A stretch of 64,000 bases of DNA. It comes from Aurantiochytrium sp. KH105. Taxonomy: Eukaryota > Sar > Bigyra > Thraustochytrida > Thraustochytriidae. The notes below the pieces were generated by a model. That model was not told where the DNA came from, made no database searches, and saw only the letters and a list, made by a program, of their open reading frames with translations. Both the position numbers and the translations under genes were made by a program. The stretch lies in the NCBI GenBank assembly GCA_003116975.1, contig BGKB01000090.1, positions 186,001 through 250,000 on the forward strand. The letters are read 5' to 3'. Shown here piece after piece: positions 4,676-43,562 of the stretch; within the stretch, counting starts at the first letter, position 1; the number at the start of each line of letters is the position of its first letter.

Positions 4676-5094
<419 letters not shown>

Positions 5095-22198: not shown

Positions 22199-23521
22199 TT
22201 CTCTTTTCTATTTGAAGCACTGTACTTTGCCCCGCGAGCGGCAATAAGGTCAAGCAAATGCACAAGTTTAGCCAGATCCACGTTATTGCAGCTCGGCCTC
22301 GCTACGGGTGAGCCCACCTCAGCAGGCGAGCTTTGCCACGCGCGCGCGCAAACGCTTTTGGCTCGCCTTGCCTACTTTATCTCATCGCAGCTGTCCTCTT
22401 GCGACTGACCTCCTATCGTAAAAGAAGAATGGTGCATCGACAGTACACCCGCCGTGTGTGCGTTCCGATGCGAAGTAAAGCCTACGAGAACACGTCGGCG
22501 CGTCTCAGGCAGACCGTCGGGCGACCGCCGCCCATTGGAACATGAAACGGTATACCAACGCGACATTGCTCAGTACACACCCCTTTTGCGAACCGGGGAT
22601 TCCTTTCCAATGGCGTCCTTTCACGGTTGACAAAGCCGGCTTTCCAAAGGCGTGGTGTACAATTTATGCCTCAAGGCCTACGCTTATTTGCAATCACCCA
22701 CAGCAGCCAGCCAGCTAACCCATCCAGCCAGCTAACCCATCCAGCCAGCCAAGCACCATGGCCAGCCAGCCAGCCAGTCTGACAGACAGCCAACGTTTTC
22801 CAAGGACCGGGGAACCGCGTCGTGCGCAGACTCGGACCCTCGGGGCAACTGCTGTTACAGGGTCCGGCAATCCGAGGCTGCATGAGCTTCTATGGCCCTA
22901 GCACTTCGAAAACGGCCGAAATTCTGACGACAAGCCGCAGTCGAACTCGGAAAATCTTGCGTTCAACGGCTCTTTTCGCCTCTGTCCGGAGAAGAAAGCA
23001 TTGTACCCTGTGTCGTATGAAAGCCGTTGATGCTCGCAAGACTACGTTGCAGCAGCCAAAAGCTTGATGCGGTCGACGAGAGGATCGCCTTCTCGCTTGC
23101 AGGCGCTCAAGCCTCGGTGACTTGGAAGTCAAGGACACGACGATGGGAAGCGGGTCCACAGAAAATTCAACCGTGCCGATCTGGCCTTTCTCTGGTCTTG
23201 TACTCGAAATCGACGTCGGTATGATGATCAATTCGGGAGCAATCCAAGAGAGGAAACGCAAGGCCAAGCAAGTGTCGCCTTTCGATCCCCGGTGTCGACG
23301 CGTGGGTCCGTTTTCATATTCCGTGGGGAAAGAAGAATGGCAATGGGTTGGAACGGGAAGTTAAAAGGGAACAAAAGGAAGGGGAGGGGGGTGTTGGTGC
23401 GATCTGGCGAGTTTGTCAGGGACGATCAGCCAGCAGAAACGAATTGGTCGCTCTGCAGCTGCAGAGGAACGAAGCTCGTTGATGGCGCCTCGGTTGACGA
23501 GGTCACACCGAGCCTACGAGA
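22199..23521. other. Divergent 1.3-kb intergenic region
   Basis: It lies between the K+ channel and array member 1 and should hold both promoters. It contains a CAGC-rich block with two 17-base units (CCAGCTAACCCATCCAG) at about 22720-22755. No gene is seen. Confidence 0.55.
22688..22785. repeat. CCAG/CAGC-rich short tandem repeat
   Basis: Repeated CCAGCCAG units contain two consecutive copies of a 17-base unit with CTAACCCAT. Simple sequence in the divergent intergenic region. Confidence 0.8.
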
Positions 23522-25180
23522 ATGACAGATCGCGTCGGTGTCTTGATGCCCTCAAGTGGGAGAGTGGCGCCGTCACGGGCACAGATTGCGCCAGCGCCAG
23601 CGCTCGCTGAAGGAAATGAGCCATCTGCACTTTCAAATGATGAGAAAAACAAACTCCAGACCGAGAAGCAGCGGCACCATGAGGTGGAAGGTACTTTGGA
23701 TATTAACGTGAGGAAAAGCCGTGTCTTTAAGACGGATAGCCTCGCAGAGCTGAGCAACGCCAATTTCTTTCGCTCAGTGCAAGGCGACGATGCAGACAGC
23801 TGGGACGGGGGGTCTCTCGCAGGAGGTCCCTTGCAAGGAGACAGTAGCAACACTGCATCTCTCACCATGGACGAAATGTTCGAGTCCAAAATGCGGGAGC
23901 TCAATTGGCGTGAGTTCGTTCACATTCTCGTGTGGACGTACAAGCTTTGGCCGTCGATCGTGCTGGTTGGAGCTGGTATTTTCTTGAGTGAAGTTCTACA
24001 TCGACTTGTGATTGGACAGCACAAACCTTATGTGCAGGTACTCGTAAGCTATGCGGTTGCCGTACTCTGTTTGACGATCGGCCTGTGCAATATTTATCGC
24101 TATATGCGAATTCCTTGGTCAGCAGCTCTCCCCACAGTTTGCCTCGAGTTTCTCCTTTGTTTCACGATCGTTTCTATCGCCGAGTTTTACTTTGAGAAAC
24201 CCTGGGACCCACTTATGACAATGGCCTACTTTTCAATCTCTTTCTGCATGTGGTCGACCTTTAGTCTGCAATTCCTGCAAATCATCTGCGGCGCCTCTCC
24301 TTTGGATATAATGCCCCATCTCGTAGCCTTTTCAATTGGCATCTCGTCTGGGTTTTCCATGATCTTTATCACAGGGTACGGGTACGTCACCTTTGTCACC
24401 TTTGATTCGTGGTTGACGGAATGGATCGTGTCGGGGCTTACGTTTCCTCTTCTTTCTGTCATCGTCGGCCGCTTGATGGTGGCTGACTATATTAGTTTTG
24501 CCATGTTATGGGCTTTTCCAACCGGATCGAGTCGAGCGGTCATGAGCTTCTTTTCTATCTGCGTCAAGGTAAACTTTCATCTCGCGAGTCAAATTGGAAT
24601 TCTCCTTATCGACTCGCAGGTTGCCTTTGCAATGGCGGTCGGTGTCTCCTGTCTCACGGAAGTCGTTGGGACTTATTTCAACGTCGTCATGACCAACGCG
24701 ATGCAAAAGCGGTCGTCGGGTATGCAGGTTCACCCAAGCAGCAGAAATATCATCTTGCACTGGATGGCACTGCGAGCTGCCGTGTCAAAAGAAAAACTCA
24801 TTCTTCACGTGCACGATGAATCGGTGGGGGAAAAGCTTGTCGTATTTGCCGCGACTGCCTCAGTAATGATGACTGTGTCGAACGACGCCAGCGTTGCTGA
24901 TGCAGATCGGCCCAGGACAATGCACAAAGTGTTAATACGAGGTCTTATTCTTTTCGCAGCGGAAATCATGCAGGACTTCTTCCAGCGCTTTGTACTCCTC
25001 CACGTGGGTCGATTGACCGCAACGGTGATCAAGCCTCGTTTCTTAACGGTCCGGGAGAACCTTAACATCATTGTGCTCATTCTCATGACGCTCAATCTTT
25101 TCAGCGTCTCTGAATGGCTCAACTGGATCAATACATGCGAGATTGAGCAAGGAAATGCTACCAAGTGTTTTGCCACGTGA
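23522..25180 (+). CDS. Array member 1: multi-pass membrane protein, unrecognised family
   Basis: 552 residues, the longest and one of the two most divergent of six paralogues in a row. A hydrophilic N-terminus of about 130 residues precedes roughly ten hydrophobic segments. Family marks: TDSLAEL near residue 65, corresponding to RSxSLxAL in the others; EWIVSGLTFPLLSVIVGR; then VADYISF and LWAFPTGSS; EVVGTYFN; the loop motif EKLILHVHDE followed by GEK; and AEIMQDFFQR near the C-terminus. The C-terminal tail (WINTCEIEQG) is unique to this copy. I know of no family with this pattern. The HxHDE motif suggests a possible metal or proton site, but that is inference. Confidence 0.8.
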   Translation: MTDRVGVLMPSSGRVAPSRAQIAPAPALAEGNEPSALSNDEKNKLQTEKQRHHEVEGTLDINVRKSRVFKTDSLAELSNANFFRSVQGDDADSWDGGSLAGGPLQGDSSNTASLTMDEMFESKMRELNWREFVHILVWTYKLWPSIVLVGAGIFLSEVLHRLVIGQHKPYVQVLVSYAVAVLCLTIGLCNIYRYMRIPWSAALPTVCLEFLLCFTIVSIAEFYFEKPWDPLMTMAYFSISFCMWSTFSLQFLQIICGASPLDIMPHLVAFSIGISSGFSMIFITGYGYVTFVTFDSWLTEWIVSGLTFPLLSVIVGRLMVADYISFAMLWAFPTGSSRAVMSFFSICVKVNFHLASQIGILLIDSQVAFAMAVGVSCLTEVVGTYFNVVMTNAMQKRSSGMQVHPSSRNIILHWMALRAAVSKEKLILHVHDESVGEKLVVFAATASVMMTVSNDASVADADRPRTMHKVLIRGLILFAAEIMQDFFQRFVLLHVGRLTATVIKPRFLTVRENLNIIVLILMTLNLFSVSEWLNWINTCEIEQGNATKCFAT

Positions 25181-26010
25181 GAATTTTATTCGCAAACAAC
25201 GATTGTAGATAGAGATGGTTTTCCAAAAGAATGCGGATCTCGCAATGGCGTGCTCGATGTGACTTCTCTCCACGCTGGGACTGGCGTCCAGGGCCAAACA
25301 ATTTGGACCCAGTAAAGGACACGTTATTTTCAATTTTAAGAAGGATCCAATAGTGCTCATAGCAGTGAGCATTGCTGCGTTTTGCTCTGCTGTGTTGTGC
25401 TGTGCAGAGCTCTACGTTGCAGCTCGTTCCGTTCGCAGAGGAAAATTCCCCTCATTATAAAGCAGATTACGAAGGACAGTTCCTTTTCAAAATAGAAAAA
25501 TAATGAGCTCCCAGACGAACGTCAAATCATCACGTGAGTTTTCAAGGGTAAAAGCACCTTATTGATTGAAGACGTCTCAAAATCATAGTTTTCTTTTAGT
25601 TTCCAGTTTCGCGTAAGCAGTGGCAGCTGACCTTCTTTCTTTCTTTTTCTCCTTTTTTTTTTCTTCTAATTCTCCTTCGTTTTTGCGAGTACAATCACGC
25701 AGCCCAAGAGCTCCGTCTGAGAACCACACTTGACGTCGCTTGCACATGCTAGGGAGATGCCCGGACAATTTGAGGCTCAGAGAGTGAGACCCGGACAATT
25801 GTTTTGTAGGAGCTTCAATTGATTTTCTGCGGGCCAAACAACGGATCTTTCTTGAGAAACGTGGTACAAGCGATCCTGAGAGTCTCCGGGAGAGAACCCG
25901 GGCGAGAACCTAAAGTAGTATGACGAGGCCAAAACCCGGTTCGACGGTACAGAAGGGTCTTTAACCTCGTTGGCCTCGGCGTCCGCGTAGTCGTCCTCGT
26001 CGTCATCCTT
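25181..26010. other. Spacer between array members 1 and 2
   Basis: 830 bases, relatively A/T-rich, with a T/C-rich stretch at 25635-25680 and two copies of CCCGGACAATT about 32 bases apart near 25759 and 25791. No gene is seen. Confidence 0.6.
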
Positions 26011-27432
26011 GTGATCGTTTTCGAAAAGCTAGAGCTCGTGGGCCGGTGCAATCTGAGCATGCAGGCATGGCGTCATCAAGCTTGCTCTAGCGTGCAGATC
26101 GCACCAGAGACTATGGTCGAAAGTTCAGACCAAGTTATCATGAATAAGCCTAGGCGACGCAACTTTCGCTCCTCGAGCTTGATTGCGCTAAAGTCGGAAA
26201 ATGTAAGCCATGTTCTTCTACGAGAAGAGCTAAAGCAAGTTTTCCTCTGGACTTTACATCTTATTCCGTCAATGCTCTGGGTTGTCTTGAGCGTTTCAAT
26301 AGACACGCTTTTCTCTGGAAAAGTCATATCCAGCGATGCACCCAGACAAGCAACCATCTACAGAGTATGCGTCTCCTTTGCGATCTTCTTTGTCTCGATC
26401 GGTGTCATGCAGCGAGGGCTTAACTTTACCAGATTTGAGGTGCTATTATCCTCTTTCGTCACGTACGGGTGCTTCGGCGGTTTGATAGCATTAGGCGTGC
26501 ATTATGGCTTCCCTTGGGACACTTTGTCATCGATGATTGCAATTAGCGCCTCGTACGGCGCTGCCTCGTGGTTAAATTTGGCCATCTTGCAGATAATGAA
26601 TGGCGCCCGAATTTTTTCAATAAAGGTTCACATTGTTGCTCTCGTGACCGGCGGGAGCGCGGCAGTCGCATTGCTCGCATGCATTGGCTACGGCTTGATC
26701 ACACAAAGGAAATACTCTTGGCATGCTGAATGGCTTATTGCAGGCGTAGCGTTTCCTCTGGTTTCTCTCCTTGCTGGACGCCTCCTCGTAGCGGACGTCA
26801 TCAGCTTTGCGCTCTTGTGGGCATTCCCCGAGGGATCATCGACGTCCGTTCTCACTTTCTTTAGTCTCGTGGTCAAGATTGCATTTTACTTGCCCGGTCA
26901 AGTCGCTTTGCTCGGATTGCGCTCGTGGACAGCTTTCTTGCTGTCGATCGTCGCCACAAGCTTTTCTGAGATCTTTGGGACCTACGTAAATGCCAAAATG
27001 ACCCGAATGCTACATCGCAAAGCACAAAGCTTCGAAATCGACGAAGAGAGTCAGAACTTTGTGCGACAATGGGTCGCAGTCCGTGCTGCTGTCTCGGACG
27101 AGAAGCTCGTTCTTCACACGCACAATGAGCTCATCGGGGAGAAAGTCGTACTCTGCGCGGCCATTGCGGCAATCCTACAGAGTGAGGCAATCTTGCAAGG
27201 AGAGGCCACCTCGGCAGGTGATCTATTGTCGCGCGGCTTGCTTCTTGCATTTGCCGAGATGCTTCAGGATTTCTTGCAACGTCGCGTGCTGCTAGCCACG
27301 GCAGGACTCTCGGTGACGGGAATCCCGCCACGTATTCTTAGCTTGAGCGAGAACTTTTGCATTTCGTGCCAGCTTCTAATGACTCTGAATCTACTGAAGA
27401 CGTCGCAAAGCCTCCTCGAGATTAATGAATAG
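26011..27432 (+). CDS. Array member 2: multi-pass membrane protein, unrecognised family
   Basis: 473 residues from the first ATG. Start at 26113 (MVESSDQ) is equally likely, because other members begin about 25-30 residues before the conserved N-terminal FRSxSLIAL motif. It has about ten membrane spans. Family marks present are EWLIAGVAFPLVS, VADVISFALLWAFPEGSS, FFSLVVKIAFYL, GTYVNAKM, EKLVLHTHNE followed by GEKVVL, EMLQDFLQRR, and PPRILSLSENF near the end. It is much closer to member 3 than to any other copy, indicating a recent duplication. The HTHDE of other members is HTHNE here and in member 3. Confidence 0.8.
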   Translation: MIVFEKLELVGRCNLSMQAWRHQACSSVQIAPETMVESSDQVIMNKPRRRNFRSSSLIALKSENVSHVLLREELKQVFLWTLHLIPSMLWVVLSVSIDTLFSGKVISSDAPRQATIYRVCVSFAIFFVSIGVMQRGLNFTRFEVLLSSFVTYGCFGGLIALGVHYGFPWDTLSSMIAISASYGAASWLNLAILQIMNGARIFSIKVHIVALVTGGSAAVALLACIGYGLITQRKYSWHAEWLIAGVAFPLVSLLAGRLLVADVISFALLWAFPEGSSTSVLTFFSLVVKIAFYLPGQVALLGLRSWTAFLLSIVATSFSEIFGTYVNAKMTRMLHRKAQSFEIDEESQNFVRQWVAVRAAVSDEKLVLHTHNELIGEKVVLCAAIAAILQSEAILQGEATSAGDLLSRGLLLAFAEMLQDFLQRRVLLATAGLSVTGIPPRILSLSENFCISCQLLMTLNLLKTSQSLLEINE

Positions 27433-28485
27433 TTTTCACTGTGGCATTAGCAAGCTGAGAAAGGGACGCGGGACGATGGCAGAGAAACTCTCGCACGAGC
27501 AATGGACTGACAGTGAGGCGCTGCTCAGGGCCACCAAGGGCAAGCTACTCTATGAAGAACAAGGGAAAGTCACGACGTCCACGAGACCTTTCAGCACCTC
27601 AGAAAGTCGAGTTGATATTTGCGTAGTGATATCTGTCCGCTACCAGCTTTCAGCTTTTGCTCGATTTCGTTGCTTCCCATTGGCTGACCTGCAAGAATGC
27701 AGACGTCGATTATCGGGTTCCTGATCGATGTGGACGAGCGATCGCTACGCAACTTGCAAAATCTCTCCGTGTCAGCTTCGCGTGGGCCCTACAAGGTGGA
27801 GAATTTGCGCGCAAGAGGTGTCCAAAGGTTGCCGACGCTCAACGGCCCCTACTCCCAAGTTTGCGGTCGGCTTTGGCGCGCCTGCAATTATGCTTTGGAG
27901 AGGCGCCGGCGCACACCGACCCTCGCGATCGACCGTACTTCGGCGTCTCTGCCATCGAGCGCACCAGGCGCGACTTCGTCTCCACCGTCCCAGGCTTGGC
28001 TTTTTCGTGTGCGTGCAGCACGTGACCGCGGTCGCACGTAGGTTTGAGTAGGCCTAGTAGCCAAGTGGGCCTAGATCCCGGGCCCTAGGCTGTCTTGAGG
28101 TCCCAACGGCACTGCATTGACATGTGAAAAGCGTCACCTCAACCTGCCCAGTGCCGCTTTGCCACTTCCTGGCAGACTAGACTACTCTCCTACACTGCCC
28201 CCGCCCACGGCGATGCTACTTCAACGACCACCAAACAAGCTCCGGCTCTGGATGCCTCGAGAAAGTAAATTATATAAAAAAAATAAAAAAAATACAGGAC
28301 TCGGATTCCTTGTAAATCCGACTTTTGCAAATCGTAGGGAAAAATGGTATTCAAGAGACGTTTTCCCGAGGATGAGAGGGTTAAATTTTAAAAAAAATTA
28401 AAGAAAAGGACACATTCTCTCGGTGAGCAGGGGTTTGGCCTAGCCAAGAAAAGACAAAATGTCGCAATCTAAATTCTTAGGCTAC
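27433..28485. other. Spacer between array member 2 and transposase remnant
   Basis: About 1 kb. Three overlapping open frames of 100-120 codons at 27660-28050 show no domain. From 28260 to 28410 the DNA is A/T-rich with A and T runs, possibly the flank of the transposon remnant. A GGCCTAG motif recurs near 28052, 28075 and 28437. Confidence 0.5.
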
Positions 28486-29282
28486 TTAGTCGGCCATTGT
28501 GTAGTCGATGAAGCCATTCTTTTCGATCACCTTAATCAATGATTTATACATGGACAACAATTCACCTTTGCTGCCTTTCTTTTCTCGAAAGAAATCGACA
28601 CCCATTCGCACGATGCGCTCGAGCACGTTCAGTCGGTGCTGAGTTTTCTGGCCATGTGGGACATGCGCATTCAGAAGTCTGGTCTCGATCTTGGGATCAT
28701 TGCGCTTGTGATTCGTCCATGTACGTAGCATACGGTTGTAATTTTCGCACAAGTTCAACTGCGGCGAGTTGGGTGCGGAACGAAGAATATGGATTTCTCC
28801 TTTGCGCTTCCCATCGCAGGTGATACCTTTCATGAAAGCCTCATAACTTGGCAGCGTCTTGAGCAAGTCATCGTCTTCCTTGAATCCGACGTGGTGTGTT
28901 CTGGAGCGTTGTCCATGATGATCCAAACTTTCATTCCTCTCAGGATCTCGATGTAGGGATCCTTTTGCAAAGTTGGAGCACTGCCTTCAAGAAGAGCACC
29001 AAGGAGGTTGTTCAGGAAGATACATAACTCTTGATGCCGATAGTTTGCCTTCCAGGCTGTTGTCTCCTGCTTCTTTCTTCTGAGAACTGGCACTTTCTGC
29101 GCGGGAAAGAAATCGGCATGGAGAAGGCCATATTCATCATTGACCGCAAGGGCGCCTTGGCATCTATGCCCAAGACCACCTATGGGCGGTGTCTTTATTG
29201 TTGCGCGCTCACCAATCTTGAGACGAATTCGAAGACGCCATCGCGGTGGTACGCATGCCAGCGTCGAAATTGGTGCTTGCAC
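28486..29282 (-). pseudogene. Decayed DDE transposase (Tc1/mariner-IS630-like)
   Basis: Two overlapping frames carry consecutive pieces of one transposase. The 5' piece (28830-29282) ends with KVWIIMDNAPEH, the second catalytic Asp region. The 3' piece (28486-28926) carries PNSPQLNLCEN, the catalytic Glu region that reads SPxLNPIEN in intact Tc1-type enzymes. The frame changes at about 28885-28905. No clear N-terminal helix-turn-helix is found, and terminal inverted repeats could not be recognised, so the copy looks dead. It lies on the strand opposite to the membrane-protein genes, between members 2 and 3. It is different in sequence from the transposase at the right end of the window. Confidence 0.75.
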
Positions 29283-29912
29283 AAGTCAATGACGCTGGTG
29301 GGGCTTCAACAACAGACGCTGGCGCAGCCAACGTTGACTTTGACGTTCTAATGGCTTTGCTAGGCGGTGGCAAGCCACTCGTGGAGCGGTTAGCCTCGGC
29401 ATTGACAGGTCTTCGCGCCTCGCCATGGTCGGCAAGTGTCATCCTCGACGCCATGCCTGCTGGCCAGCAGCCAGGCAGCTTGGATCCCTTTCGCCCACTG
29501 CCAACAACGCAGGCACGGTTGCTGGCTGGCTGCCAGTGGAACGCCAGAACACAATCGCAAGACACGCGCGATGTCTTTTGCAGCCAGCCGGCAGCAGCGC
29601 CGCTGGCGATGGCCTCTTGCCGTCGCTGTCAATGTGTTGCCTGCCGCTGCCCCTGGTGGAGGGAAAATCTTTGGGGACGCTCGCGAGAACAAAGGGCGGA
29701 TTTCGTAATCATCTTAGAATGTTGGCCGGAGAAATAAGCTAGTTCGGGAAAATTACAAGAAGAGGCCTAACCCTGATTCTGGTTTCACATGTCATCCACT
29801 GGGAAGCGGGGTGTTGAGAGGTGGCGAATAGAAGCAGCAGCCAAAAAAATAAGTATTTTGAAGTGCATCTTCCACTCTTGCAGCGCCAGCTCATGAAACG
29901 GAAGTAGCTGGT
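29283..29912. other. Spacer between transposase remnant and array member 3
   Basis: 630 bases. GC-rich DNA at 29340-29700 contains GCTGGCCAGC-type palindromes and repeated GCCAGG/GGCTGGC. It may be part of the decayed transposon or foreign filler. No gene is supported. Confidence 0.45.
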
Positions 29913-31409
29913 GTGGGTGGCACTCCACTGCTGCGGCTGTATCATGTAGCGCGCAACGCCTTCAAAGCAAGCCAAAGCAAAATTGACAGAGTGAGAACCG
30001 TGCCGCCATACTCAGGACGGTCGCCCAGGCGGGGCGGCCCAAGCATGCTAGAGCGCCAGGACGAAGTACGCTCCAAAGTGCAGGTGGCACCTGTAACAGA
30101 AGACTGCGTTCTATCGTTGCGAAAGTCTGAAAGACGCGAGTTTCGCTCAGAGAGCTTAGTGGCACTAAGCTCCGAGAATGAGCGTCGGTTTACTCCTCTC
30201 GAGGAGCTAAAGCACATTCTGCTTTGGACCATGCATCTCATTCCGTCAATGATCTGGGTTGTCGTGAGCGTTTCACTGAACGCACTCTTTTTCGAAAAGG
30301 TTGCTCCCCCCGATTCGCCCAGATTTATGGTCATTGCGAGAGTTTTCGTCGGTCTGATGCTCTTTTTCGCATCGATCGGAATTATGCAGCGAGGACTTCG
30401 CTTCACTAAACTTGAGGTGCTTTTCTCTTCATTCGCCACGTTTGGATTCTTTGGCGGACTCCTTGCGTTGATGGCACGCTTTGGTTTCCCATGGGAGACA
30501 GTCACGTCGATGGTCGCCATCAGCCTGACGCACGGGACACTGACCTGGTTCAACATGGTGGTCATGCAAGTTTTAAGCGGCGCCCGATTTCTTTCCGTCA
30601 AGGTTCATCTCATTGCGCTCGTGACAGGGTCGAGCGCAACGATTGCAATGCTGGCGTGTATTGGATATGGTTTGATCACGCAAAGGGAGTACTCGTGGTA
30701 CGCAGAGTGGCTTGTTGCGGGAGTGGCGTTCCCCTTGGTCTCGCTTCTTGCCGGGCGTTTCCTCGTGGCAGACGTGATCAGCTTTGCAGTGCTTTGGGCA
30801 TTTCCCGAGGGATCATCGACTTCCGTTCTGACCTTTTTTAGTCTCGTTGTCAAGATTGGGTTTTACTTGTCAGGCCAAGTCGCTCTGTTCGGATTATCTT
30901 CGTCAACTGCATTCTATCTATAAATCGCCGTTACTAGCTTGGCTGAAATCGTTGGGACCTACGGAAATGCTAAAATGACACGGATGCTGTATGAAAAGGC
31001 CCAAGGCTTTCGTGTCGACCCCAAAAGCGAGAATCTTGTGCACCAATGGGTCGCAGTTCGCGCTTCTGTCTCTGACGAAAAGCTCGTTCTTCACACACAT
31101 AATGAGCTGATCGGGGAGAAAATTGTACTCTGCGCGGCCATTGCAGCGGTCTTGCAAGGAGAATCGACTATTGAGAGCGACGCGTTTTCGCCAGTCATCC
31201 TGTTGACGCGCGCCTTGCTGCTTGCAATTGCCGAAATGCTTCAGGATCTCTTGCAGCGACGCGTGTTACTGGCCACGACGGGGCTAACGGTGACGGGGAT
31301 TCCGCCTCGTATCCTTAGCTTCGGCGAAAACTTTTCCATTCTGTGCCAGCTCCTCATGGTGCTGAATTTATTGAAAATGTCGCAAAGTCTCCTGGAAATT
31401 CAGTTGTGA
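29913..31409 (+). pseudogene. Array member 3: membrane protein gene with one in-frame TAA
   Basis: A 498-codon frame, open except for TAA at 30921-30923. It is collinear with member 2 over its full length: FRSESLVAL, EWLVAGVAFPLVS, VADVISFAVLWAFPEGSS before the stop, then GTYGNAKM, EKLVLHTHNE, GEKIVL, EMLQDLLQRR and PPRILSFGENF after it. The stop falls exactly where member 2 has Ser (TCG), so a single base change from TCA would explain it. There is no frameshift and no other damage. It is therefore a very young pseudogene, a truncated 336-residue protein, a sequencing error or a readthrough gene. Downstream ATGs (30939 in frame) could in principle start the C-terminal part. The first ATG at 29913 adds a longer N-terminus; 30045 (MLERQ) is an alternative start. 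Confidence 0.8.
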
Positions 31410-31490
31410 GTCCTTTTATTCATACCGTTACTATTTATCTCTACAAACAATATTTTACAAGCCGTAACTAGCATAAGTTTACCAGAAGAG

Positions 31491-32754
31491 TCACTTCGTG
31501 CACGAGATGGATTTGATGTAAATATTGCGAGCACCGTTGATGTCTCTGTCAATGGAGAGACCACAACGATCACAATTATATCGTTTATTTCCACCAAGAT
31601 TGCGTTTCACGTATCCGCATCTTGTGCATGTTTTTGAAGTGTACTCTTCAGGAACGGCCAGCGTGTTTCTTACATGTCCGTGGTCTTGAATGAGTTTGTC
31701 GCGAAAGCGACAGTGAGAAAGCAGTTGTATCTTGCGCTTCGCAGTTCGATGGGGGCTTGGGTGATTCGAGGATACTCTTGACACCTATTTTACCAACCCG
31801 GATTTCTTGAAAGTTGTCCAGAAGAAAGCGAATGATCTTGTCGTGTGTGTTCTTGCGTTTGTTCTTCATTTTTGCCCAAAGCATTTGCTCTTTGTGCTTG
31901 TAGGTCTTCTCATGAATGCGACTTCCAGTCTTTTCATCCCGATCCCGGGAGCTTCTGATCTGGTCGATACGCTTTGACAAGTCGAGCATACTGTAAGACT
32001 TGAAATTTTCACGTTTCTCAGAACCAGTCGTACGTGGCAAGACGTTGAGTGTTGCACATAGTTTCGCATCGTTCGAATAGAGTGTTTGAAAGTCACGAGC
32101 ACCTGGATCGAGAGTCGCGTCTTTGAAAGGTGCTGGTTTGAGCTTTTCTCGCTTTTTCTGATATGGAATGATCAGGTACCAACGACCAGGCTCTTCGTAA
32201 ACGATTTTGCAGTCCTTTTCAATCTTGGGGAGCTTTCGATTTCGCTTTTTCGAACCTTGACGTTTGTATCGCAATGATCCAAATGGTTCAGCTTCGTCGT
32301 CTGCATCCAATTTCCACCGATATTGTTCCATGAGGAAGATGAAGTTGTCGTCAAATGCATTGTTCTTGGCGAACATACACTTTTGAACTGGAATAACACC
32401 AAAACCTCGCTTGTCGCGCCTTGACTGAAAGCGCATTTCGAACTTTTTCACATTTCCAGCCTTTTTGTTCGAGAAAGCGGATTTGTAAGCTGCTCCTAGA
32501 CGACGTAGAGTGTCACCACGCATATGGTATGGAATACTCTCAATCTCGTCATCGAGCTTTCGTTCCTTCTCGACCGCACGATTTAATGCTTTACGGGTTG
32601 GTCCAAGAAAGTACTTTTTCATCTCCGCAAAATGAGTGCCTACATTTCCTTTCTTGATATGCTCAAGAGCCAGATTCCACAATGCGCGTAGTGCGTGGTG
32701 AATTTTGGCAAAAATCTTTCTTTGACGAAGTGTTGGTCGCAGCTTAACTTTCAT
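31491..32754 (-). pseudogene. tnpB: TnpB/Fanzor-type RNA-guided nuclease homologue, one frameshift
   Basis: About 420 codons spread over two frames. The 5' frame starts MKVKLRPTLRQRKIF, the usual TnpB opening, and has RuvC-I in TLDPGARDFQTLYS (Asp216). The 3' frame (from about 31784) has RTAKRKIQLL, VPEEYTSKTCTRCG, a CxxC-CxxC zinc ribbon, and RuvC-III in DRDINGARNI. At the canonical RuvC-II position (IRVGKIGVKS, about residue 321) the Glu is replaced by Gly. The Glu pair in VPEEYTS about 48 residues later matches the relocated catalytic Glu described for Fanzors and a subset of TnpBs. The break is a net one-base insertion, most likely in the run of five Gs at 31751-31755, so a sequencing error is possible. 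In intact relatives the nuclease uses an RNA encoded at the element's 3' end; no such RNA can be recognised here by eye. Confidence 0.85.
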
Positions 32755-33360
32755 TGATCTTAAGTCGCTTTCTTCCACTTCGTCTGCTTCGTTGACCGTG
32801 GAGACGACACCCAAAGACAGTGATGATTGAGACGAGGTCTTTGACGAGTTCATCTTGCGGTCCTCCATCGTCTTCTCGTCCATTTGGATGGACAACTCGA
32901 ATTGAGCCTCCTTTGGAAGTGACAATCCACTCGAGCAAGTCGAATGCGAATCGACAGAGACGGTCTCTATAGGTAACCACGACTTCGTCGAGTTCTCCTT
33001 GCATTGCGAGTTCCAGAATGGAACGAAGACCGCGCCTTTTGAAGTTGATGCCCGATCCAATGTCTTGGATGACTTGGTGATTGGGGAAGTTTTCTTCGAA
33101 CCAAGCGACTTGTCTGGAGAGGTCGTCTTTCTGCGCTTTGCTACTGACTCTTGCATAACATAGTCGACGTCGCTCAACTTCCGTTTGCCTAGGAGTGTCC
33201 GGATTGTTGTCAAAGTCCTCGATACATACTCGCCGGTGTCCACCTTTGTTCTATAACTTCTGACTTTGTTGGCGTTAGCGTAGTTTCGTATCGTATCTCT
33301 GTGCAGTCCGAGCCGCGCAGCGGCGACCCCAATAGAGACGTAGTGTCGCTCATCTGACAT
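32744..33360 (-). pseudogene. tnpA: IS607 TnpA-type serine recombinase, one frameshift
   Basis: The 5' frame, starting at MSDERHYVS, has a MerR-like helix-turn-helix (VAAARLGLHRDTIRNYA). The frame then shifts by one base at about 33225-33240 into the catalytic domain. That domain shows CYARVSSKAQKDDLSRQ with the nucleophilic Ser, then YRDRLCRFAFDLLE, and ELVKDLVSIITVFGCRLHG near the end. The span is 617 bases, one short of 206 codons, as expected from a single deletion and matching the usual 200-residue TnpA. Serine recombinases of this group move the element through a circular intermediate with little target preference. With the shift the copy should be inactive unless the shift is an error or is bypassed. 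Confidence 0.85.
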
Positions 33361-34123
33361 TGAGCGATACCACCAACCCGAGTTTTGGTTTTGCTGGAAA
33401 CGAGCTGGTTTTGCTTTCGATTCAGGTCGCTTCCACACCCGGTCGTATCGTATGAGCCACCAAGAAAGAATGTTCCTACAATGTAATACATCGAACACAA
33501 TGTTCATATATCTTCTACATGGCTAATAATTTGTTGTAACTGCTTCGTACCCTGTCTTTCTCTCTATGAGTCCATCTGTCGTGCATTCTTTCGTGCAGAT
33601 TTTTGATCAATCAGGGGAGCAGAAAACGCAACTGCCCTGACCGTTTCGAAACTAACATTATCGTATCAGCATGATCTTGTGTGAGCATGCACAGCTTCGT
33701 TCCGTTACGCTGTGGGGAAGCCTTCACCTTCGCCTTCCAAAAAAGACACGAGCAGCTCCCGGAGAGAGAGGAAGGAAGGAAAGGAAAGGAAAGGAAAGGA
33801 AAGGAAAGGAAAGGAAAGGAAAGGAAAGGAAAGGAAAGGAAAGGAAAGGAAAGGAAAGGAAAGGAAAGGAAAGGAAAGGAAAGGGGTGTGGCATTCTGAC
33901 CTTACAGTATCAATGCCGCGTCACAAGTGTCGGTTCGCCGAGCGTGATTGCATCACTTGACCTGACCTGAAAGCCACAACACGGTCCGGCGCAGCTTTTC
34001 GATAAGCGTGCATGCTGCAAGGCGTGCGCGCTGCAAAGTAGGAATTGCTTCCGGGCTGCCCGGGGCACGCCGTCTGACTGGAAGGCAAGGACAAGCGAGC
34101 GCCTTGCAGCGCCTTGATGCACT
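33361..34123. other. Spacer between IS607 element and array member 4
   Basis: It holds the left flank of the IS607 element (an in-frame extension of tnpA reaches 33507), then ordinary sequence, a GGAAA microsatellite, and about 230 bases of probable promoter for member 4. No gene is supported. Confidence 0.55.
33771..33885 (+). repeat. (GGAAA)n pentanucleotide microsatellite
   Basis: More than 20 near-perfect GGAAA units lie about 240 bases upstream of array member 4. The tract is entirely purine on the + strand. Confidence 0.97.
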
Positions 34124-35440
34124 ATGGCTAATGGCGTTGCTGCGGTGGTACCCGAGCAAGATGGCCAAGTGCTTGGGTCTCGTATTTCGAGTCGAGTTTT
34201 TCGCTCTGAGAGCATGCTCGCCTTGCAATCAGAGGAAAACAAAGTGCCGGATGTGCTGGTTGACCTACGTCACATTCTACACTGGACACTGTGCCTCATT
34301 CCTTCTGTAATATTTAGCAGCGTCGGTGTATTTATCAACGCAATACTCATTGGAAATGCTCTGCCTTCAGATTCACGCACGTTGCCCGTGCTAAAATTCG
34401 GTTTTGCAATCGTCTCCTTCGTGCTCACGGTTCTCACGCTCTATCGTGGCTTTCAGCTGCCTTGGGTCATTGTCATCATGTCAGCGTTAGAGATGCTGCT
34501 CTTTTGCGGAGTCCTCATGGCCATACAGGTTTCCCAAGGCTTTCCGTGGAGTCCTCTCACGTCGATTGCCATGATGAGCGCGACTCACGGCGTGACGGCT
34601 TGGAGCAATATTTTGTTCACGCAGATCCTACATGGGATATCCATCCGCACACTTCGGACTCATCTTATCGCTATCATTGTCGGATCGTGCTCTGGTGTCG
34701 CCATGTTTGCTATTGCTGTGTATGGTCTCATCACAGAGGCCGACCATCCATGGTACATTGAGTGGCTCATTACCGGCTTTGCATATCCAGTCGTTTCGGT
34801 TCTTGCCGGTCGAATACTGGTTGCCGATCTCATCAGCTTTGCGTTGCTTTGGGCTTTTCCAGAGGGCTCGTGCACCTCAGTGCTCAGCTTTTTCAGCCTT
34901 CTCGTGAAAATAAGCTTTTACTTGGCTGGTCAAGTGTCCATGTTAGAGCTACAATCTTGGACTGCGTTTGGATTATCAGTCGTTGTGACTACCCTCTCGG
35001 AAGTCGTTGGTACCTATGCTAATGCTCTGATGGCTCAATTTGTGCGCCGCAAGGCAGAAGGCTACAAAATTGACGCTGAAAGCCAAGATTTTATCCATCA
35101 GTGGGCGGCTGTGCGTGCCGCTGTCTCGGACGAAAAGCTTATCCTCCATACGCACGACGAGTCCATTGGCGAAAAGGTCGTTTTGGGTGCCGCAATTGTC
35201 GCTTCGCTTCTTGACACGTCGATGCCAACTTTTACGGTCATTTTGCGCGGATCAGTACTCGCAGTTGCAGAGGTTGCGCAGGATCTGATGCAGCGTCGAG
35301 TCCTGGCTCACGCTGCGAATCTTACCGTGACGAATATCTCGCCGAGAATTCTACGGGCAAGAGAGAACTTCAACATCACTTGCTTCATTATCATGACCTT
35401 TAATTTGTACAGCTTCTCCAAAAGTCTCATTGCCATTTGA
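34124..35440 (+). CDS. Array member 4: multi-pass membrane protein, unrecognised family
   Basis: 438 residues, a compact and apparently complete copy. It has a 27-residue lead to FRSESMLAL and about ten hydrophobic spans (first LIPSVIFSSVGVFINA; fifth HLIAIIVGSCSGVAMF). Family motifs are EWLITGFAYPVVSVLAGR, VADLISFALLWAFPEGS, FFSLLVKISFYLAGQ, EVVGTYANALM, EKLILHTHDE followed by GEKVVL, EVAQDLMQRR, and SPRILRARENFNI. It is closest to member 5. It probably sits in a cellular membrane with the FRSxS tail and the HTHDE loop in soluble phases. Function unknown. Confidence 0.82.
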   Translation: MANGVAAVVPEQDGQVLGSRISSRVFRSESMLALQSEENKVPDVLVDLRHILHWTLCLIPSVIFSSVGVFINAILIGNALPSDSRTLPVLKFGFAIVSFVLTVLTLYRGFQLPWVIVIMSALEMLLFCGVLMAIQVSQGFPWSPLTSIAMMSATHGVTAWSNILFTQILHGISIRTLRTHLIAIIVGSCSGVAMFAIAVYGLITEADHPWYIEWLITGFAYPVVSVLAGRILVADLISFALLWAFPEGSCTSVLSFFSLLVKISFYLAGQVSMLELQSWTAFGLSVVVTTLSEVVGTYANALMAQFVRRKAEGYKIDAESQDFIHQWAAVRAAVSDEKLILHTHDESIGEKVVLGAAIVASLLDTSMPTFTVILRGSVLAVAEVAQDLMQRRVLAHAANLTVTNISPRILRARENFNITCFIIMTFNLYSFSKSLIAI

Positions 35441-35835
35441 GCATCTAGCTAATACTAAGGTATCAACACCTTTGAACAGCTTTCTTCCATCGAAGCAATG
35501 TGATACTCTAGATCTCTGCAACTTTTTCTTGACGCAAGGCGATCTTCGTATCACAGGCGCACTACTGTTTGTAGGCTTAGGCCTTCGATTTGATCACCAT
35601 TCCATCCCAATATATCCGTTGGGGATGATGAAGTCAAGTTCAAGTTCGCCGTCAAGTACGAAAGTTGGACTTGAATGTTGAACTTAAAATTCGACTTTCC
35701 TCAACTTGACCCGGTGGCCACTCCCATGTGCACTATTCGCAAGAACTTCTTGGCCCGAGGCTTGGCTAGGTGGTACGGTTGACTCGAATCCAGGTAAACG
35801 GTCCGGTATACATGTCGACACCATGATGCTGGCTA
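35441..35835. other. Spacer between array members 4 and 5
   Basis: 395 bases with A/T-rich 3' sequence and no gene. A CAAGTTCAAGTTC-type stretch lies at about 35632-35647. Confidence 0.6.
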
Positions 35836-37302
35836 TTGAATAGAAAAGCACAACCAAGAGCTGAGTGCGCAGCGCGCGGGCGTCCTCTGGACACCTTGCG
35901 TCGAGGCGCTGCCGCACGTGGCAGCGTTGACGAGGAAGCAATGCCCTGGAAGAGCGCGACTGTGGCCCCCGCCCAGAGAGATAGAGAGGCTTTCGTTGAA
36001 GAGTCGAGCACGAAAGTTCCCGTGTACGACTCCCGCCGAGCTTTCCGCTCAGACAGCTTGATTGCGCTGCGCCCGGCGAGCACTGTATACACGTCAATCG
36101 GCCATGATGTGCAGCATATGTTACGTTTGACCTTGTATCTAATCCCGTCCATGGCGTTGGCCATTCTGGGCATTGTCACGAACCACTTTCTTCTCACAGC
36201 CGCGCTACCCGAGGTCTCGCGCTCTCGTCCTGTGACCATTTTCAGCGTTGCACTCATGGCATTTTCTTTGGCACTCAGCACAATATACTATGGCTTTCGA
36301 TGGCACTTGATCGAAGTGGCCCTCTCCATCACCCAGCTTCTGGTAACATATGTCGTTTTGATTGCTCTTCAGATTCTCAAGGGCTTTCCCTGGGACCCAT
36401 TTCTGTCTGTAGGCATGCTTAGCATCACCCATGGTGTCGCTGCATGGACGAATCTGCTTTTCTCGCAGTATCTGCAGAAGGCAAACCTGTGCTCCCCCAA
36501 GCCTCACATTGTTGCTCTCGTCATTGGGGTCTGCGCAGGCGTTGCAATGTTCACGATTACTGTGTACGGACTGATCATTCACAAGGATTACGTCTGGTAT
36601 GAGGAGTGGCTCATTGTTGGCGTTGGATACCCGGCAGCCTCGGTTTTGGCGGGCCGCGTCATGGTGGCTGACATGATCAGCTTTGCTTTGCTTTGGGCCT
36701 TCCCTGGGGGTTCGTCCTCTTTAGTGCTGAGCTTTTTCAGCCTGCTCGTCAAGATCAGCTTCTACTTGGCCGGCCAAACATCAATGATCGAAATGCACTC
36801 CTGGCGAGGCTTCGTGCTCTCTGTCATTATAGTGAGCCTCACAGAGGTTTGCGGCACCTATGCCAATGCCAGGGTGACGCAATTTATACGTCGCAAGGCA
36901 CAAGACATCACGATCGAACCTGACAGCCTTGATTTTGTTCGGCAATGGGCAGCTGTTCGAGCTGCCCTTTCCGATGAAAAGCTCATCCTGCACACACATG
37001 ATGAAGCGCTTGGTGAAAAGATTGTATTATGTGCCGCAATCACGGATGCATGGCTCACAGGATACGTTTCAGCTCAGACCGTTTTGCTCCGTGGTTTAAT
37101 ATTAATTCTCGCAGAGTCAATGCAGGATCTGTTGCAGCGTCGTATGCTCGCTTATGCAGCAGGTCTCTCAGTAACGAGTATCCCGCCTCGCTTTTTACGT
37201 CTTCGTGAAAACGTGAGCATTGTGTGCTTCATCATTATGACAAGCAATCTGTACAAATTTGCGACAAGCCTTCTCGCAGTGCCTTTCGTATCGACACCAT
37301 GA
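35836..37302 (+). CDS. Array member 5: multi-pass membrane protein, unrecognised family
   Basis: 488 residues from the first ATG; 35941 (MPWKS) is a plausible alternative. FRSDSLIAL lies about 70 residues in. About ten hydrophobic spans follow. The set of family motifs is complete: EWLIVGVGYPAASVLAGR, VADMISFALLWAFPGGSS, FFSLLVKISFYLAGQ, EVCGTYANARV, EKLILHTHDE followed by GEKIVL, ESMQDLLQRR, and PPRFLRLREN. It is most like member 4. No frame damage is seen. Function unknown. Confidence 0.82.
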   Translation: MNRKAQPRAECAARGRPLDTLRRGAAARGSVDEEAMPWKSATVAPAQRDREAFVEESSTKVPVYDSRRAFRSDSLIALRPASTVYTSIGHDVQHMLRLTLYLIPSMALAILGIVTNHFLLTAALPEVSRSRPVTIFSVALMAFSLALSTIYYGFRWHLIEVALSITQLLVTYVVLIALQILKGFPWDPFLSVGMLSITHGVAAWTNLLFSQYLQKANLCSPKPHIVALVIGVCAGVAMFTITVYGLIIHKDYVWYEEWLIVGVGYPAASVLAGRVMVADMISFALLWAFPGGSSSLVLSFFSLLVKISFYLAGQTSMIEMHSWRGFVLSVIIVSLTEVCGTYANARVTQFIRRKAQDITIEPDSLDFVRQWAAVRAALSDEKLILHTHDEALGEKIVLCAAITDAWLTGYVSAQTVLLRGLILILAESMQDLLQRRMLAYAAGLSVTSIPPRFLRLRENVSIVCFIIMTSNLYKFATSLLAVPFVSTP

Positions 37303-37996
37303 TTCGGCTCCTTGGCATCGCTTGGCGAGCCCAGCCAAGCAAGGACCTCAGTCCTTTCGTATTGTTTCTTTTTTCCCGCATCTTTTGGGGACCTTGCATG
37401 CGTGCGGTCGCTCACTCTCTCGTCCTTTACAAAACAGAGGCTGACCTACGCACTGGCAACAATCGTTGGGCCCTTTGGTCCCATGGCCCAGCAAGCCTTT
37501 TCAGAAATACAAACATGGTGATTACCTCGGTTGGTCGGAACGAGACCACTTTTCGAATTGTAAAGGGATGAATGAATGAATGAATGAATGAAGTTTGATT
37601 TTCTTCAAAATCGCTCCGCCCTGCTTGCCTGGGCCGCTCTTTCATGGTTCACTGAACATCTCTACATGGTAGATCCTCTATGCTGGAATGCCTGCCTCAC
37701 TATCCGGATTGTGCCTCTTTCACAGATAGTAAGGCCCAAGGAATCCGTTACGGAACTGACAGTGAGTAGCTCGGACGTTGGCGGACGATGGGCCGGGCAG
37801 TAAACATAAACTCGGTTTCCTCCTTTGGACTTACTAAGCTAAGGTTAGGCTTGACGGAAAGTGTCGAGCAGAGACGAACAGCTCGAAACAAGCCCAACGG
37901 CTATTATGTCTTTGGCATTGGAGACATGTAGACACATGTAGGGTCCTGTACGCCCAAAGTAGTAGTAGGGCCCACTCGACATCGGCATGTGAGTGC
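37303..37996. other. Spacer between array members 5 and 6
   Basis: 694 bases without a supportable gene. It contains a short (GAAT)n tract at about 37568-37591 and ordinary mixed sequence before member 6. Confidence 0.6.
37568..37591. repeat. (GAAT)n microsatellite
   Basis: Five or six GAAT units in the spacer between array members 5 and 6. Confidence 0.9.
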
Positions 37997-39442
37997 ATGC
38001 CTCGCCCGAACCCGACGAGGCCAGACGGTCGAAGCCCGTCCGTCAGTAGGCTCGGCCAACCAAAGAGGATGCCGGAGTCCCGGGCGGTGCGCGTGACGCC
38101 CGTACCGGAGCCGGCACACGCGCCGCGGTGCGAGATACACGCCCTGGGAGATCAATCTACTGCGTCGCGAATAGTTCGTGCAGAGAGTATTCTAAGTCTC
38201 CGAAGCGAATGTGTGACGGGAGAGGCTACGTGGCGGAGTGAGGTTGAGCATACTCTTTTCTGCATATTGAGATTATGGCCTTCCGCTTTGTTCATTGTGA
38301 TCGCCGTTGTGTGCAATCATACGTTGCGACAAAGACTTATTACCACGCCTGACTTCTTCCAGTACAAGGCAGTTATCGCATTCGCAATAGGCGATCTTAG
38401 TTTTGCAATATCTCTCATCTTTCTGTGGCGCAGAGTGAGGATGAGTCGAGTGCAGACAATGCTCGTTATCTTAATGAAAGAGAGTATCAGCTTCGCAACA
38501 CTCGCCTTGGGCATCCGGTACGGTCTACCATGGACAAACGATCAAATGTCAATATTTTTCTTCTCAATTGCGCTGGGGCTAAGCATCATGGTGGAAATGT
38601 ATGCAGCGCAGTCATTGAGGCGCGAGAGATTGTGCTCTTTTCAGACGTCGTTCCTGACGTTGAGTAATTTTTTATCTACGATCGTGGCATGCTTTACAAT
38701 CATGTATTACGCATATCTCGTCATTTCTCTGGATCTTGAGGACTCTTGGCTTAAAGAGTGGCTTCTCAATGGTATCGCATTCCCGGTTCTCTCTGTGCTG
38801 GTTGGACGCCTGCTCGTGGCAGATCTGATGAGTTTTCTGTTCATGTGGGTTTTCCCACCTGAATCGCACCGAGCGGTCCTGACCTTTTACACAATTTTGG
38901 TGAGGTTGAACTTTAGCATTGCCTCGCAAATCGCAATTTTGCGGTTGACGTCAACTCGAGCCTTTGTACTTTCCGCCATCGCTGCATCCGTAATGGAGGC
39001 GGCGGGGACGCTGATAAACGTCAAAATGTGTGACTACATTCGACGCAAGGCTCAGGACTATAAGCTTGACGCTGGCCGCATGGACAAAGACGCGAACGTG
39101 ATGACGCAGTGGCTTGCCATGCGGTCGCAGCTAGCGCGGGAAAAACTCATTCTTCATACACACGATGAAGTGCTCGGTGAAAAGGTGGTCATTTTGGCCG
39201 CTACGGTGGAGACTGTGCTGACGACCAACAACGCAGCGCAAGCTCTTGCTCTGCGTGGGACAATTTTATTTATTGCACAAGTCCTGCAAGAGCTCTTGCA
39301 GCGGGCTATCCTCCGTTGGTGTGCAGAGGTTTCTCTTACGAGCAACGAGCTGCGCTATCATTCCTGGCAGGACAATGTTGTTTTGGCAGGCATTATTGTC
39401 ATGACGCTGAATTTCTTTACAGCGTCAGAAGATCTTGTGTAA
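37997..39442 (+). CDS. Array member 6: multi-pass membrane protein, unrecognised family
   Basis: 481 residues, the second divergent member, at the far end of the array. The N-terminal motif reads VRAESILSL instead of FRSxSLxAL. About ten hydrophobic spans follow. Retained motifs are EWLLNGIAFPVLSVLVGR, VADLMSFLFMWVFPPES, GTLINVKM (Tyr of GTY lost), EKLILHTHDE followed by GEKVVI, and QVLQELLQRA. As in member 1, the FFSLLVK block is altered, to FYTILVRLNFSIASQ. Members 1 and 6 share features absent from 2-5, such as the Ala-Ser-Gln of ASQI after the seventh span, so the outer genes may be the older copies. Function unknown. Confidence 0.8.
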   Translation: MPRPNPTRPDGRSPSVSRLGQPKRMPESRAVRVTPVPEPAHAPRCEIHALGDQSTASRIVRAESILSLRSECVTGEATWRSEVEHTLFCILRLWPSALFIVIAVVCNHTLRQRLITTPDFFQYKAVIAFAIGDLSFAISLIFLWRRVRMSRVQTMLVILMKESISFATLALGIRYGLPWTNDQMSIFFFSIALGLSIMVEMYAAQSLRRERLCSFQTSFLTLSNFLSTIVACFTIMYYAYLVISLDLEDSWLKEWLLNGIAFPVLSVLVGRLLVADLMSFLFMWVFPPESHRAVLTFYTILVRLNFSIASQIAILRLTSTRAFVLSAIAASVMEAAGTLINVKMCDYIRRKAQDYKLDAGRMDKDANVMTQWLAMRSQLAREKLILHTHDEVLGEKVVILAATVETVLTTNNAAQALALRGTILFIAQVLQELLQRAILRWCAEVSLTSNELRYHSWQDNVVLAGIIVMTLNFFTASEDLV

Positions 39443-39682
39443 CGGAACGAACAGGCGTGCGCCTGCCTGAGCGCCATATGAGTGAGTCAAGGTATGAATG
39501 CGTGTCTGGGACTGTCTGTGAGCCTGGACTTGATCAGGAATTGTTTATCTGAAATACAAACGAAACTGACTGTTGAACAAAGAAAGAAAGAATCCAAATT
39601 AGAAGGAAAGCATTAGGGAAATGAGAACGAAACGGAAAGAAAAGAAGATACGAGAGTAAGGAGAGGAGAGGAGAAGACAATG

Positions 39683-40507
39683 CTAAGTTTCCGTTCGCGA
39701 GGCAGCCCAAGCTTGCTCGGCGAATTCAACGATAGGTTGCACGGAAAGAGGTTCAGTGCATGTGCCTCCAATCTCTGTGGGAAGCGACGAGGCGTCTACA
39801 GCGTCCTTGAAGCCGTCTACATCCTTGACTAGACAGAGCTTCGCACGGGTTCGAGGATCGAAGAAAAGCTGCACGACCTTCCATGCACCGCGCAACAGAG
39901 GGCCTGTCGGCGCAGCCATGGCTTGATGAAGACGCTCCGGGTAGTTGTCCTGCATGAGGCCAGCAACAACCTTGACCACATCGAAATCCATATTCTTGCG
40001 GGTCGCGTCAAGGCGCGAGTAGACGACAGTCATAAGACCAATTGGCCCTGCGAGGTGCTCGACGTACTCTGCCAGAATAATCGTGGCCTTTTTCACTATC
40101 TCGAGGTCTTCGTACGTGTGCTTGCCCATGACTTTGCTGCGCACAAGTACGATAAGACGCCCTTCCTTATCCTTGCCGTAAATTAAGAACTTGAGCTTTT
40201 CCAGCTCGGCACGAACTTCGGCGGTCGGTTCAATGGGGAGAGTCTCCTTGCGCCATGCCAAATTGGCTTTCAGAAAGGTCTCTGCGTCATCAACTTTACC
40301 ATCTCGCGCACGCAAGAACCTCACGACTTGGCCCGGACTTGCCTCTGGAACTCGTTGCTGAAGCTCTTTGCAAGCCTCGAGCTCTGCGCCTTGCACAAGT
40401 TCTTCGAGCGGGCTAGAGCCCGGCGCTGGCGCTGGTGCTGTTGCCGGCGCGCTTGCAGGCACGGACGCCGACGCAGGCGCCGAGGCAGTCGTCGTCTCCG
40501 TCGCCAT
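39683..40507 (-). CDS. CRAL-TRIO (Sec14-like) lipid-binding domain protein
   Basis: 274 residues. After an Ala/Pro-rich N-terminus (SASVPASAPATAPAPAPG), a CRAL-TRIO N domain (about 45-90, with VVRFLRARDGKVDDAETFL) leads into a CRAL-TRIO lipid pocket (about 100-265, LIYGKDKEGRLIVLVRSK, then DNYPERLHQAM, and LPTEIGGT at the end). Such proteins bind or transfer phosphatidylinositol, tocopherol or similar lipids between membranes. DNYPERL is the conserved gate-helix region. There is no GOLD or SEC14-extra domain. It converges with array member 6 across 240 bases. Confidence 0.9.
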   Translation of the reverse strand: MATETTTASAPASASVPASAPATAPAPAPGSSPLEELVQGAELEACKELQQRVPEASPGQVVRFLRARDGKVDDAETFLKANLAWRKETLPIEPTAEVRAELEKLKFLIYGKDKEGRLIVLVRSKVMGKHTYEDLEIVKKATIILAEYVEHLAGPIGLMTVVYSRLDATRKNMDFDVVKVVAGLMQDNYPERLHQAMAAPTGPLLRGAWKVVQLFFDPRTRAKLCLVKDVDGFKDAVDASSLPTEIGGTCTEPLSVQPIVEFAEQAWAASRTET

Positions 40508-41103
40508 GGGTGCCGCTCGCCGCTTCTATCGCCTTGCCTCGCCCAGTGCCTTGCCTTGCCTTGCGTCAAGAAGCAAGCACCTCTCGCGCCTCCCGGCCTC
40601 TCTCCCCGCGCGCTGCGGCCCGTGCGGGCGGCGAGCGGCACGAGCGCACAGAACTGTCTTTGGTGTGGCGCCCCGGCGAGGTGAGGTGAGGGTCGAGCGA
40701 GCTTGAGAAAACGAGCGCACGCGCGCAAACCAAACAAACTAACAAACGAACAAACAAACAAACCAACAAACAAACCAACAAAACAAGCAAACCCGCGGTT
40801 GTGTTTATCACAGACAGTCGGTCTGTGTGAGTGTGTGCCTAGTGGAAAAAGGGCGGATTGGAAAAGCGGGTTTGCCTGGCCCCACGTGTGTACATGGACC
40901 GGACGAGGTTGGAGCTATTGATTGATGCAGAGAGGTGCTCGCTACGTGCCATCCCTCACTTTCACTTCACAGTCAATTCACTAAAAAGCAGTCGCGAGCA
41001 AACGCAATGCAAATTGAACCTACATTGGGCAACGGGAACGGAAATAGAAAGTCAACCCTCGCGTAGCTGCGGCTTGGCCAGAGATTTGCCTTTTCTTTGC
41101 TTT
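40508..41103. other. Spacer between CRAL-TRIO and malonyltransferase genes
   Basis: 596 bases with a (CAAA)n-type block at about 40728-40790 that would lie in the promoter or leader of the CRAL-TRIO gene. No gene is seen. Confidence 0.6.
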
Positions 41104-42240: not shown

Positions 42241-43562
42241 GGTCGCGTCGCACGCACAAGTGACTTCGTCCTTGTGGTTTCCCAGCAGTGCTATAGCCCG
42301 CGTGCTCTGAGCAACCGCGTCTTGGCCCCCGCCCGGGGAGCAAGGCTGCCGCGTCTCCTTGGGGCTCTCTCGCGCTGCTGCGTTTGATGTTTTCGTCTTG
42401 TGGGCCTCATGGATGAAAGCACGAATGTCATTCGGATGCCATGGATAAATAGAGGAAAAAGACAATCTGCGCAACCCATTTCGTTCGCACAGGGAACAGC
42501 AAGGTTTTCTCTAGCTGCAATTTACTATTTGAGCTCTGCCACGTGGTGACCGAATAGAGCGCAGGGATGGGCCGTGTCGATTGTGGATCCTTGGCAAGGG
42601 ACGCACGGGATTCGAGACATGAGAAAGAGATTCGAGCCCCGGTATTTTCTTTCTTTAGAAAGACCACCTGCCGCTGCCGCTGCCGGGGGGGGAGGAGTTT
42701 TTTTTTTTTCCGCAAGAAGCTCGCGCTTCGGTTTTGCGTCACAAAATGAATGCGGATGTCCGGATGTCTCAAGTTCACTATTCCCAAACGAAGTAAGTGT
42801 TGTAGTTACTACTTTGAAGGAAACGAAGGGCAGACTCACGGCACGCGCACGACAACGCTGTTCAACGACAGCGCAGAAGAACCTCCGCTGGATCCGCAAA
42901 GGATTCTTTGCTTTCCTTATGAAAGTAATCGTTTCCTGATTTTACGCGAGCGAGACCCATCGTTCATGTGATTCGTAGCGATCTCCATGTCATAATACTT
43001 CCTTCGTACATGCGGATGCTGCCCCGCTCCTATCCACCATCCCGCTCGCTGCGCATGTGTCCAATGTAGAGGGACTAGCCCAAGTCCGCGTGTTCGGGCT
43101 TCCTTCCCTCTACCTTCTCGCCGAGTCGCCTCGCGCGATGGGCACCCGGTCGCCAAGGGCGCATGTCTCGAAGATGCGACCTGGAAGCGCCACAGCGCTT
43201 GCTGTTCGATCGTCGCGATGATTGCGCAACCCCTTCTTTGGGGAGCATGCGCCGACATGACATGCGCGCTCCGAAATCATGACGCACTCTGCCAGAAACC
43301 ATTGCTCGCTCTGCCTGCGCGTGACGGCGAGGTCTTGGCGAAGCCCGAGGGAGGAGCGAGGCTGGAGCGGGAGCTGCGGCTGCGCGAGGCGTGAAGTCTT
43401 CTTGCTTGCCACGCAGACGACAGACCGGCTTGGGTTGTCCGTCGCGATCATCGGGCCTGGCCAGCTGTAGTACGTACGTGCGTGCGTGCGTGCGTGCGAA
43501 GGAGACGCAGCAGACACAGGCAGGTGACGAGATCGCAGCGGCGCACGACAGAGATCGGCGCG
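42241..43562. other. Divergent 1.3-kb region between MCAT and CYB5R
   Basis: It should contain both promoters. A homopyrimidine/G7-T11 stretch is at about 42685-42710, and a (GTGC)n run at 43474-43498 sits just before the cytochrome-b5 reductase start. Short open frames show no domain. Confidence 0.55.
43474..43498. repeat. (GTGC)n microsatellite
   Basis: Five GTGC units lie about 65 bases upstream of the cytochrome-b5 reductase ATG. The same repeat recurs at 47471-47507. Confidence 0.9.

Follow-up and report, generated by a model that had tools for sequence, protein, structure and literature searches.

A tandem array of six old and diverged polytopic membrane protein genes, unnamed in the libraries searched, in Aurantiochytrium sp. 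KH105

The stretch of DNA analysed here, referred to below as the window, comprises 64,000 nucleotides of contig BGKB01000090.1 (C90; positions 186,001 to 250,000, forward strand; assembly GCA_003116975.1) from the thraustochytrid Aurantiochytrium sp. KH105. Window positions 23522-39442 (+) are occupied by six homologous genes, g1 to g6, all on the same strand as judged from the list of open reading frames (ORFs) and from tblastn (Table 1). Every one of the 15 paralogue pairs matches in tblastn, the weakest match for a complete query being that between g1 and g6 (E-value 5e-59, 29% identity). Identities between paralogues range from 29 to 66%, with g2 and g3 the closest pair (66%) and g1 and g6 the most divergent. 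An original prediction, made from the letters of the sequence, had proposed six same-strand paralogous genes with these same two extreme pairs, and both proposals are borne out. As adjacent, same-strand and homologous genes, the six form a tandem paralogous family, an arrangement that is repeated on a second contig, C49.

C49 carries the same six genes in colinear order at 92-95% DNA identity. Within the 26 kb of C49 compared, identity to the window is 93.5% over positions 15606-28211, 94.6% over 29825-31418 and 91.7% over 33603-43319. The genome has two matches to a neighbouring gene for V-ATPase subunit H; one lies on C90 and the other on C49, and they encode identical proteins. C90 and C49 probably represent the two haplotypes in a diploid assembly; alternatively, the pair may stem from recent duplication or from a hybrid. 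The assembly comprises 76 Mb in 367 contigs, which would correspond to a haploid size of about 38 Mb were both haplotypes present throughout. The genome was also searched for further members with the g1, g4 and g6 proteins as single queries, and the best candidates were scored. Matches listed numbered 14 each for g1 and g4, all on C90 and C49, and 15 for g6; the fifteenth g6 match, which was weak and antisense to another frame, was dropped. Among the matches listed, these single-protein searches yielded no credible further copy outside the C90/C49 locus in the 76-Mb genome, and as far as they can see the family is confined to one locus in the assembly.

The predicted gene lengths of 438-552 codons hold for five of the six genes, but not for g3, whose window ORF (30045-30923) ends at a TAA after 292 codons although same-frame homology runs on to about position 31406. 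This TAA is a nonsense change and not part of an intron, because the C49 allele is of equal length, aligns without a gap and has a single stop, at its end. The C49 alleles of g2 and g5 each contain one single-nucleotide indel near base runs of four or fewer, which may be assembly errors. Altogether, three of the twelve alleles are interrupted (g3 in the window, g2 and g5 on C49), and every one of the six loci retains at least one open allele. The listed first codon of g6 does not encode methionine on C49, whereas Met25 is common to both alleles, which makes a true start near 38069, giving a protein of about 457 residues, the more probable one.

Table 1. Genes of the array and conserved segments of g4 (window coordinates). 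AF2, AlphaFold2; pLDDT, predicted local distance difference test (mean); pTM, predicted template modelling score.
Feature	Position	Strand	Description	Evidence
g1	23522..25180	+	552 codons; longest N-terminal tail of the family; open on both contigs	ORF, tblastn, C49 alignment
g2	26059..27432	+	457 codons; open in window, C49 allele with 1-nt insertion	ORF, tblastn, C49 alignment
g3	30045..31409	+	TAA at 30921-30923; C49 allele open, 454 codons	ORF, tblastn, C49 alignment
g4	34124..35440	+	438 codons; open on both contigs; pLDDT 81.7, pTM 0.82	ORF, C49 alignment, AF2
g4 residues 24-34	34193..34225	+	Conserved serine peptide of disordered tail; R24, S30 and L34 invariant in 6/6	Alignment, AF2
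g4 residues 210-249	34751..34870	+	EW...GRxxVADxxSF core; 35-residue helix with R230 and D235; 17/40 positions invariant	Alignment, AF2
g4 residues 337-351	35132..35176	+	EKLxLHxHxExxGEK segment; 10/15 positions invariant	Alignment, AF2
g5	35941..37302	+	453 codons; open in window, C49 allele with 1-nt deletion	ORF, tblastn, C49 alignment
g6	37997..39442	+	481 codons in the ORF list, with a probable start near 38069; both alleles open; pLDDT 77.5, pTM 0.77	ORF, AF2, allele comparison

With g3 represented by its intact allele, all six members share 70 invariant positions (g4 numbering); one of these, Met1, is unreliable given the uncertain start of g6. All six keep the tail peptide [RK]-[STA]-x-S-[LMI]-x-x-L, the core EW-x3-G-x2-[FY]-P...GR-x2-VAD-x2-SF and the segment EKL-[IV]-LH-[TV]-H-[DN]-E-x2-GEK, the last of which lies past the stop in the window copy of g3. 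The motifs originally described are therefore present throughout the family in broadened form, but in their exact form RSxSLxAL occurs in only three of the six and FP in four (YP in g4 and g5). The N-terminal tail is disordered and, outside P10 and the peptide R-x-[FV]-[RK]-[STA]-x-S-[LMI]-x-x-L, variable. R-x-x-S-[hydrophobic] is the consensus of basophilic kinases; in the tail of g1 its R is replaced by K.

Divergence at synonymous sites (dS) is saturated in 12 of the 15 paralogue pairs and amounts to 1.37 (g2/g3), 2.38 and 2.58 in the other three, which, with the protein identities given above, dates the duplications as old. A midpoint-rooted tree of nine sequences, from which the three interrupted alleles were excluded, pairs g4 with g5 and g2 with g3, places g1 and g6 deep and groups together the two alleles of each of g1, g4 and g6. 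Between alleles, the ratio of nonsynonymous to synonymous divergence (dN/dS), obtained by a simple counting method and for g2 and g5 only over the portions before their indels, is 0.11 for g1, 0.19 for g2, 0.12 for g3, 0.09 for g4, 0.17 for g5 and 0.35 for g6. Selection on the family is thus purifying, and this is the only selection signal measured. The alleles of g6 differ at 34 of 481 residues, those of g1, g3 and g4 at 16, 15 and 12, respectively, and g6 is the least constrained member. The array is old, diverged and constrained, with no recent burst. The suggestion that local amplification had been selected for dosage finds no support in this degree of divergence, even between the youngest pair, and is corrected here to a picture of old copies under constraint; selection for diversification among the copies is possible.

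Relatives of the family were sought in profile libraries and in sequence collections that covered viruses, bacteria, archaea or the PDB, and no credible one was found in Pfam, NCBIfam, PHROGs, PDB sequences, IMG/VR, GTDB genomes or phages. Pfam-A, with models from all life, was searched with all six members at E-values up to 10, and nothing was listed below 3.4; HMMER filters discard most Pfam-A matches above about 0.1. In Foldseek searches of the PDB, with its solved transporter folds of the MFS, MATE and other types, neither the g4 nor the g6 model gave a match at an E-value of 0.001 or better (best 0.036 and 0.052, respectively), and no PDB or viral fold match to these models was convincing. 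Among the closest known systems are the TMEM16/OSCA superfamily (TMEM16K, 6r7x; OSCA1.1, 8ymp) and, by a weak and partial alignment, the choline-transporter-like family (yeast PNS1, 9f63). The Pfam models of the former (Anoctamin and RSN1_7TM) and of the latter were listed for none of the six members in the same Pfam-A search. The claim that the genes belong to no recognised family therefore holds across the libraries searched, with no strong profile match to any member, and the family is unnamed within them.

Unnamed, or orphan, membrane protein families are common in protist genomes, and some form tandem families in which diverged paralogues of polytopic proteins likewise lie on the same strand at one locus and belong to no named family. 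Unlike these, the present array has only six genes, with old duplications, strong constraint and no recent burst. Whatever the function of the family, we consider it rather probable that relatives are already present in related protist proteomes, either labelled hypothetical or carrying a name absent from these libraries. The composition of the sequence collections leaves room for such relatives, and the age of the duplications means that the family is probably older than the species; the silence of Pfam-A, which draws on all of life, speaks against them.

Several other features were observed within and around the array. Between g3 and g4 lies an element of about 31412-33545 that contains a TnpB/Fanzor-like ORF of 619 codons (31648-33507, minus strand), MerR-like at its N terminus. 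Its Pfam matches, OrfB_IS605 (E-value 9e-5) and MerR (1e-4), both fall below Pfam's cut-offs, and its best PDB match is the TnpB-like protein L79 (2e-9). The ORF seems broken, since on visual inspection its zinc-ribbon end is in a different frame. The DNA of the element has 26 matches in the genome including itself, ten of them nearly full length at 89-100% identity. The C49 allele lacks this element and has in the g3-g4 gap another insert, some 2 kb long, with an inverted repeat of about 25 bases at its ends (by eye); the same intergenic gap is thus occupied by two unlike mobile elements, one on C90 and the other on C49. Between g2 and g3, an insert of about 1.6 kb (28211-29825) is present on the window contig only and by eye resembles a decayed Tc1/mariner-type transposase. 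The array is flanked by genes for an ion channel that carries a cyclic-nucleotide-binding domain (19799-22198, minus strand) and for a CRAL/TRIO protein (39683-40507, minus strand). Elsewhere in the window, a 724-codon gene (49007-51181, plus strand) encodes a PqiA domain (Pfam E-value 2e-11), a domain known from bacteria and present here in a eukaryote, and a long low-complexity stretch (4329-5807, minus strand), which translates as repeated SFFLSFF, includes a run of N.

Hydropathy analysis gives between nine and eleven spans per member, in agreement with the ten or so originally proposed. AlphaFold2 models, built from an input of seven window-derived rows, show eleven membrane-length helices in identical order in both g4 and g6; ahead of these, g4 has one short helix and g6 has two (mean scores in Table 1; pLDDT is below 50 over the first 39 residues of g4 and the first 73 of g6). 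Loops were assigned from the g4 model with the N terminus taken as inside, and lysine and arginine residues were summed over the six members with the tail left out. They make up 82 of 562 residues in inside loops vs 25 of 344 in the short outside loops and are twice as dense inside, so that, by the positive-inside rule, the N terminus would more likely be cytosolic and the C terminus outside. With this predicted topology, the stretch linking helix 8 to helix 9 would be cytosolic. It is here that the EKLxLHxHxExxGEK motif sits, on a 41-residue helix that continues as helix 9 and whose invariant residues face all directions round the helix. Charged or polar residues are also conserved within helices (R230, D235, K/R262, E293, Q386, D/E387, Q390 and R391, g4 numbering), most of them toward the cytosolic end by register, and they may meet in one site.

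A role in transport or sensing, as originally suggested, is plausible. We tentatively favour, as a possibility, a transporter- or channel-like membrane protein with a conserved polar site at its cytosolic face and a phosphorylatable N-terminal tail. This reading rests on the compact polytopic body, the short outside loops, the conserved charges within the membrane, the densely conserved cytosolic-side block and the regulatory-looking tail; short outside loops together with a conserved block on the cytosolic side are what would be expected of a membrane-embedded site. The same block, the densest in invariant positions, holds HxHxE and is predicted to lie at the cytosolic interface beside R230, D235, D/E387 and R391, which also suits the main rival, an integral-membrane enzyme, for example a lipid-modifying one acting at the cytosolic face, in which H342, H344, E346 and E350 would make up a metal or acid-base site. 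We regard such an enzyme as unlikely, given the lack of a match to Pfam or NCBIfam enzyme families and of a convincing one to PDB folds, and given that invariant residues on all faces of the helix resemble a packed helix more than a single active face. That same distribution suggests packing against partners, and with the short linear motif in the tail it would fit a membrane protein that neither transports nor catalyses but acts as a receptor, scaffold or structural component, with the HxHxE helix as an oligomer or partner interface. This third reading appears distinctly improbable, as conserved charges inside membrane helices would be costly for a mere scaffold and a receptor for large ligands would hardly have such short outside loops.

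If the family is transporter- or channel-like, the conserved polar residues, mostly in the cytosolic half and beside the H-x-H-x-E-x2-GEK helix, could form a substrate or ion site or a gate, and the HxHxE segment could act as a proton- or metal-sensitive gate. The R-x-x-S-[hydrophobic] peptide of the tail would then be a candidate basophilic-kinase site for switching the protein or setting its location, and the six copies might differ in substrate, in place or in time of use. In its most specific form, the proposal is of a fold that the PDB does not yet contain, in an eleven-helix transporter or channel with a cytosolic HxHxExxGEK gate operated by metal or protons, present as six subfunctional copies in one protist lineage; we think this combination unlikely, if conceivable.

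Should the fold prove truly new, the array would add a transport or enzyme family that is unnamed in current libraries, with HxHxE, GRxxVAD and the tail serine as testable residues. Should relatives appear in protist proteomes, the family alignment and the models presented here would form the basis for a family entry.
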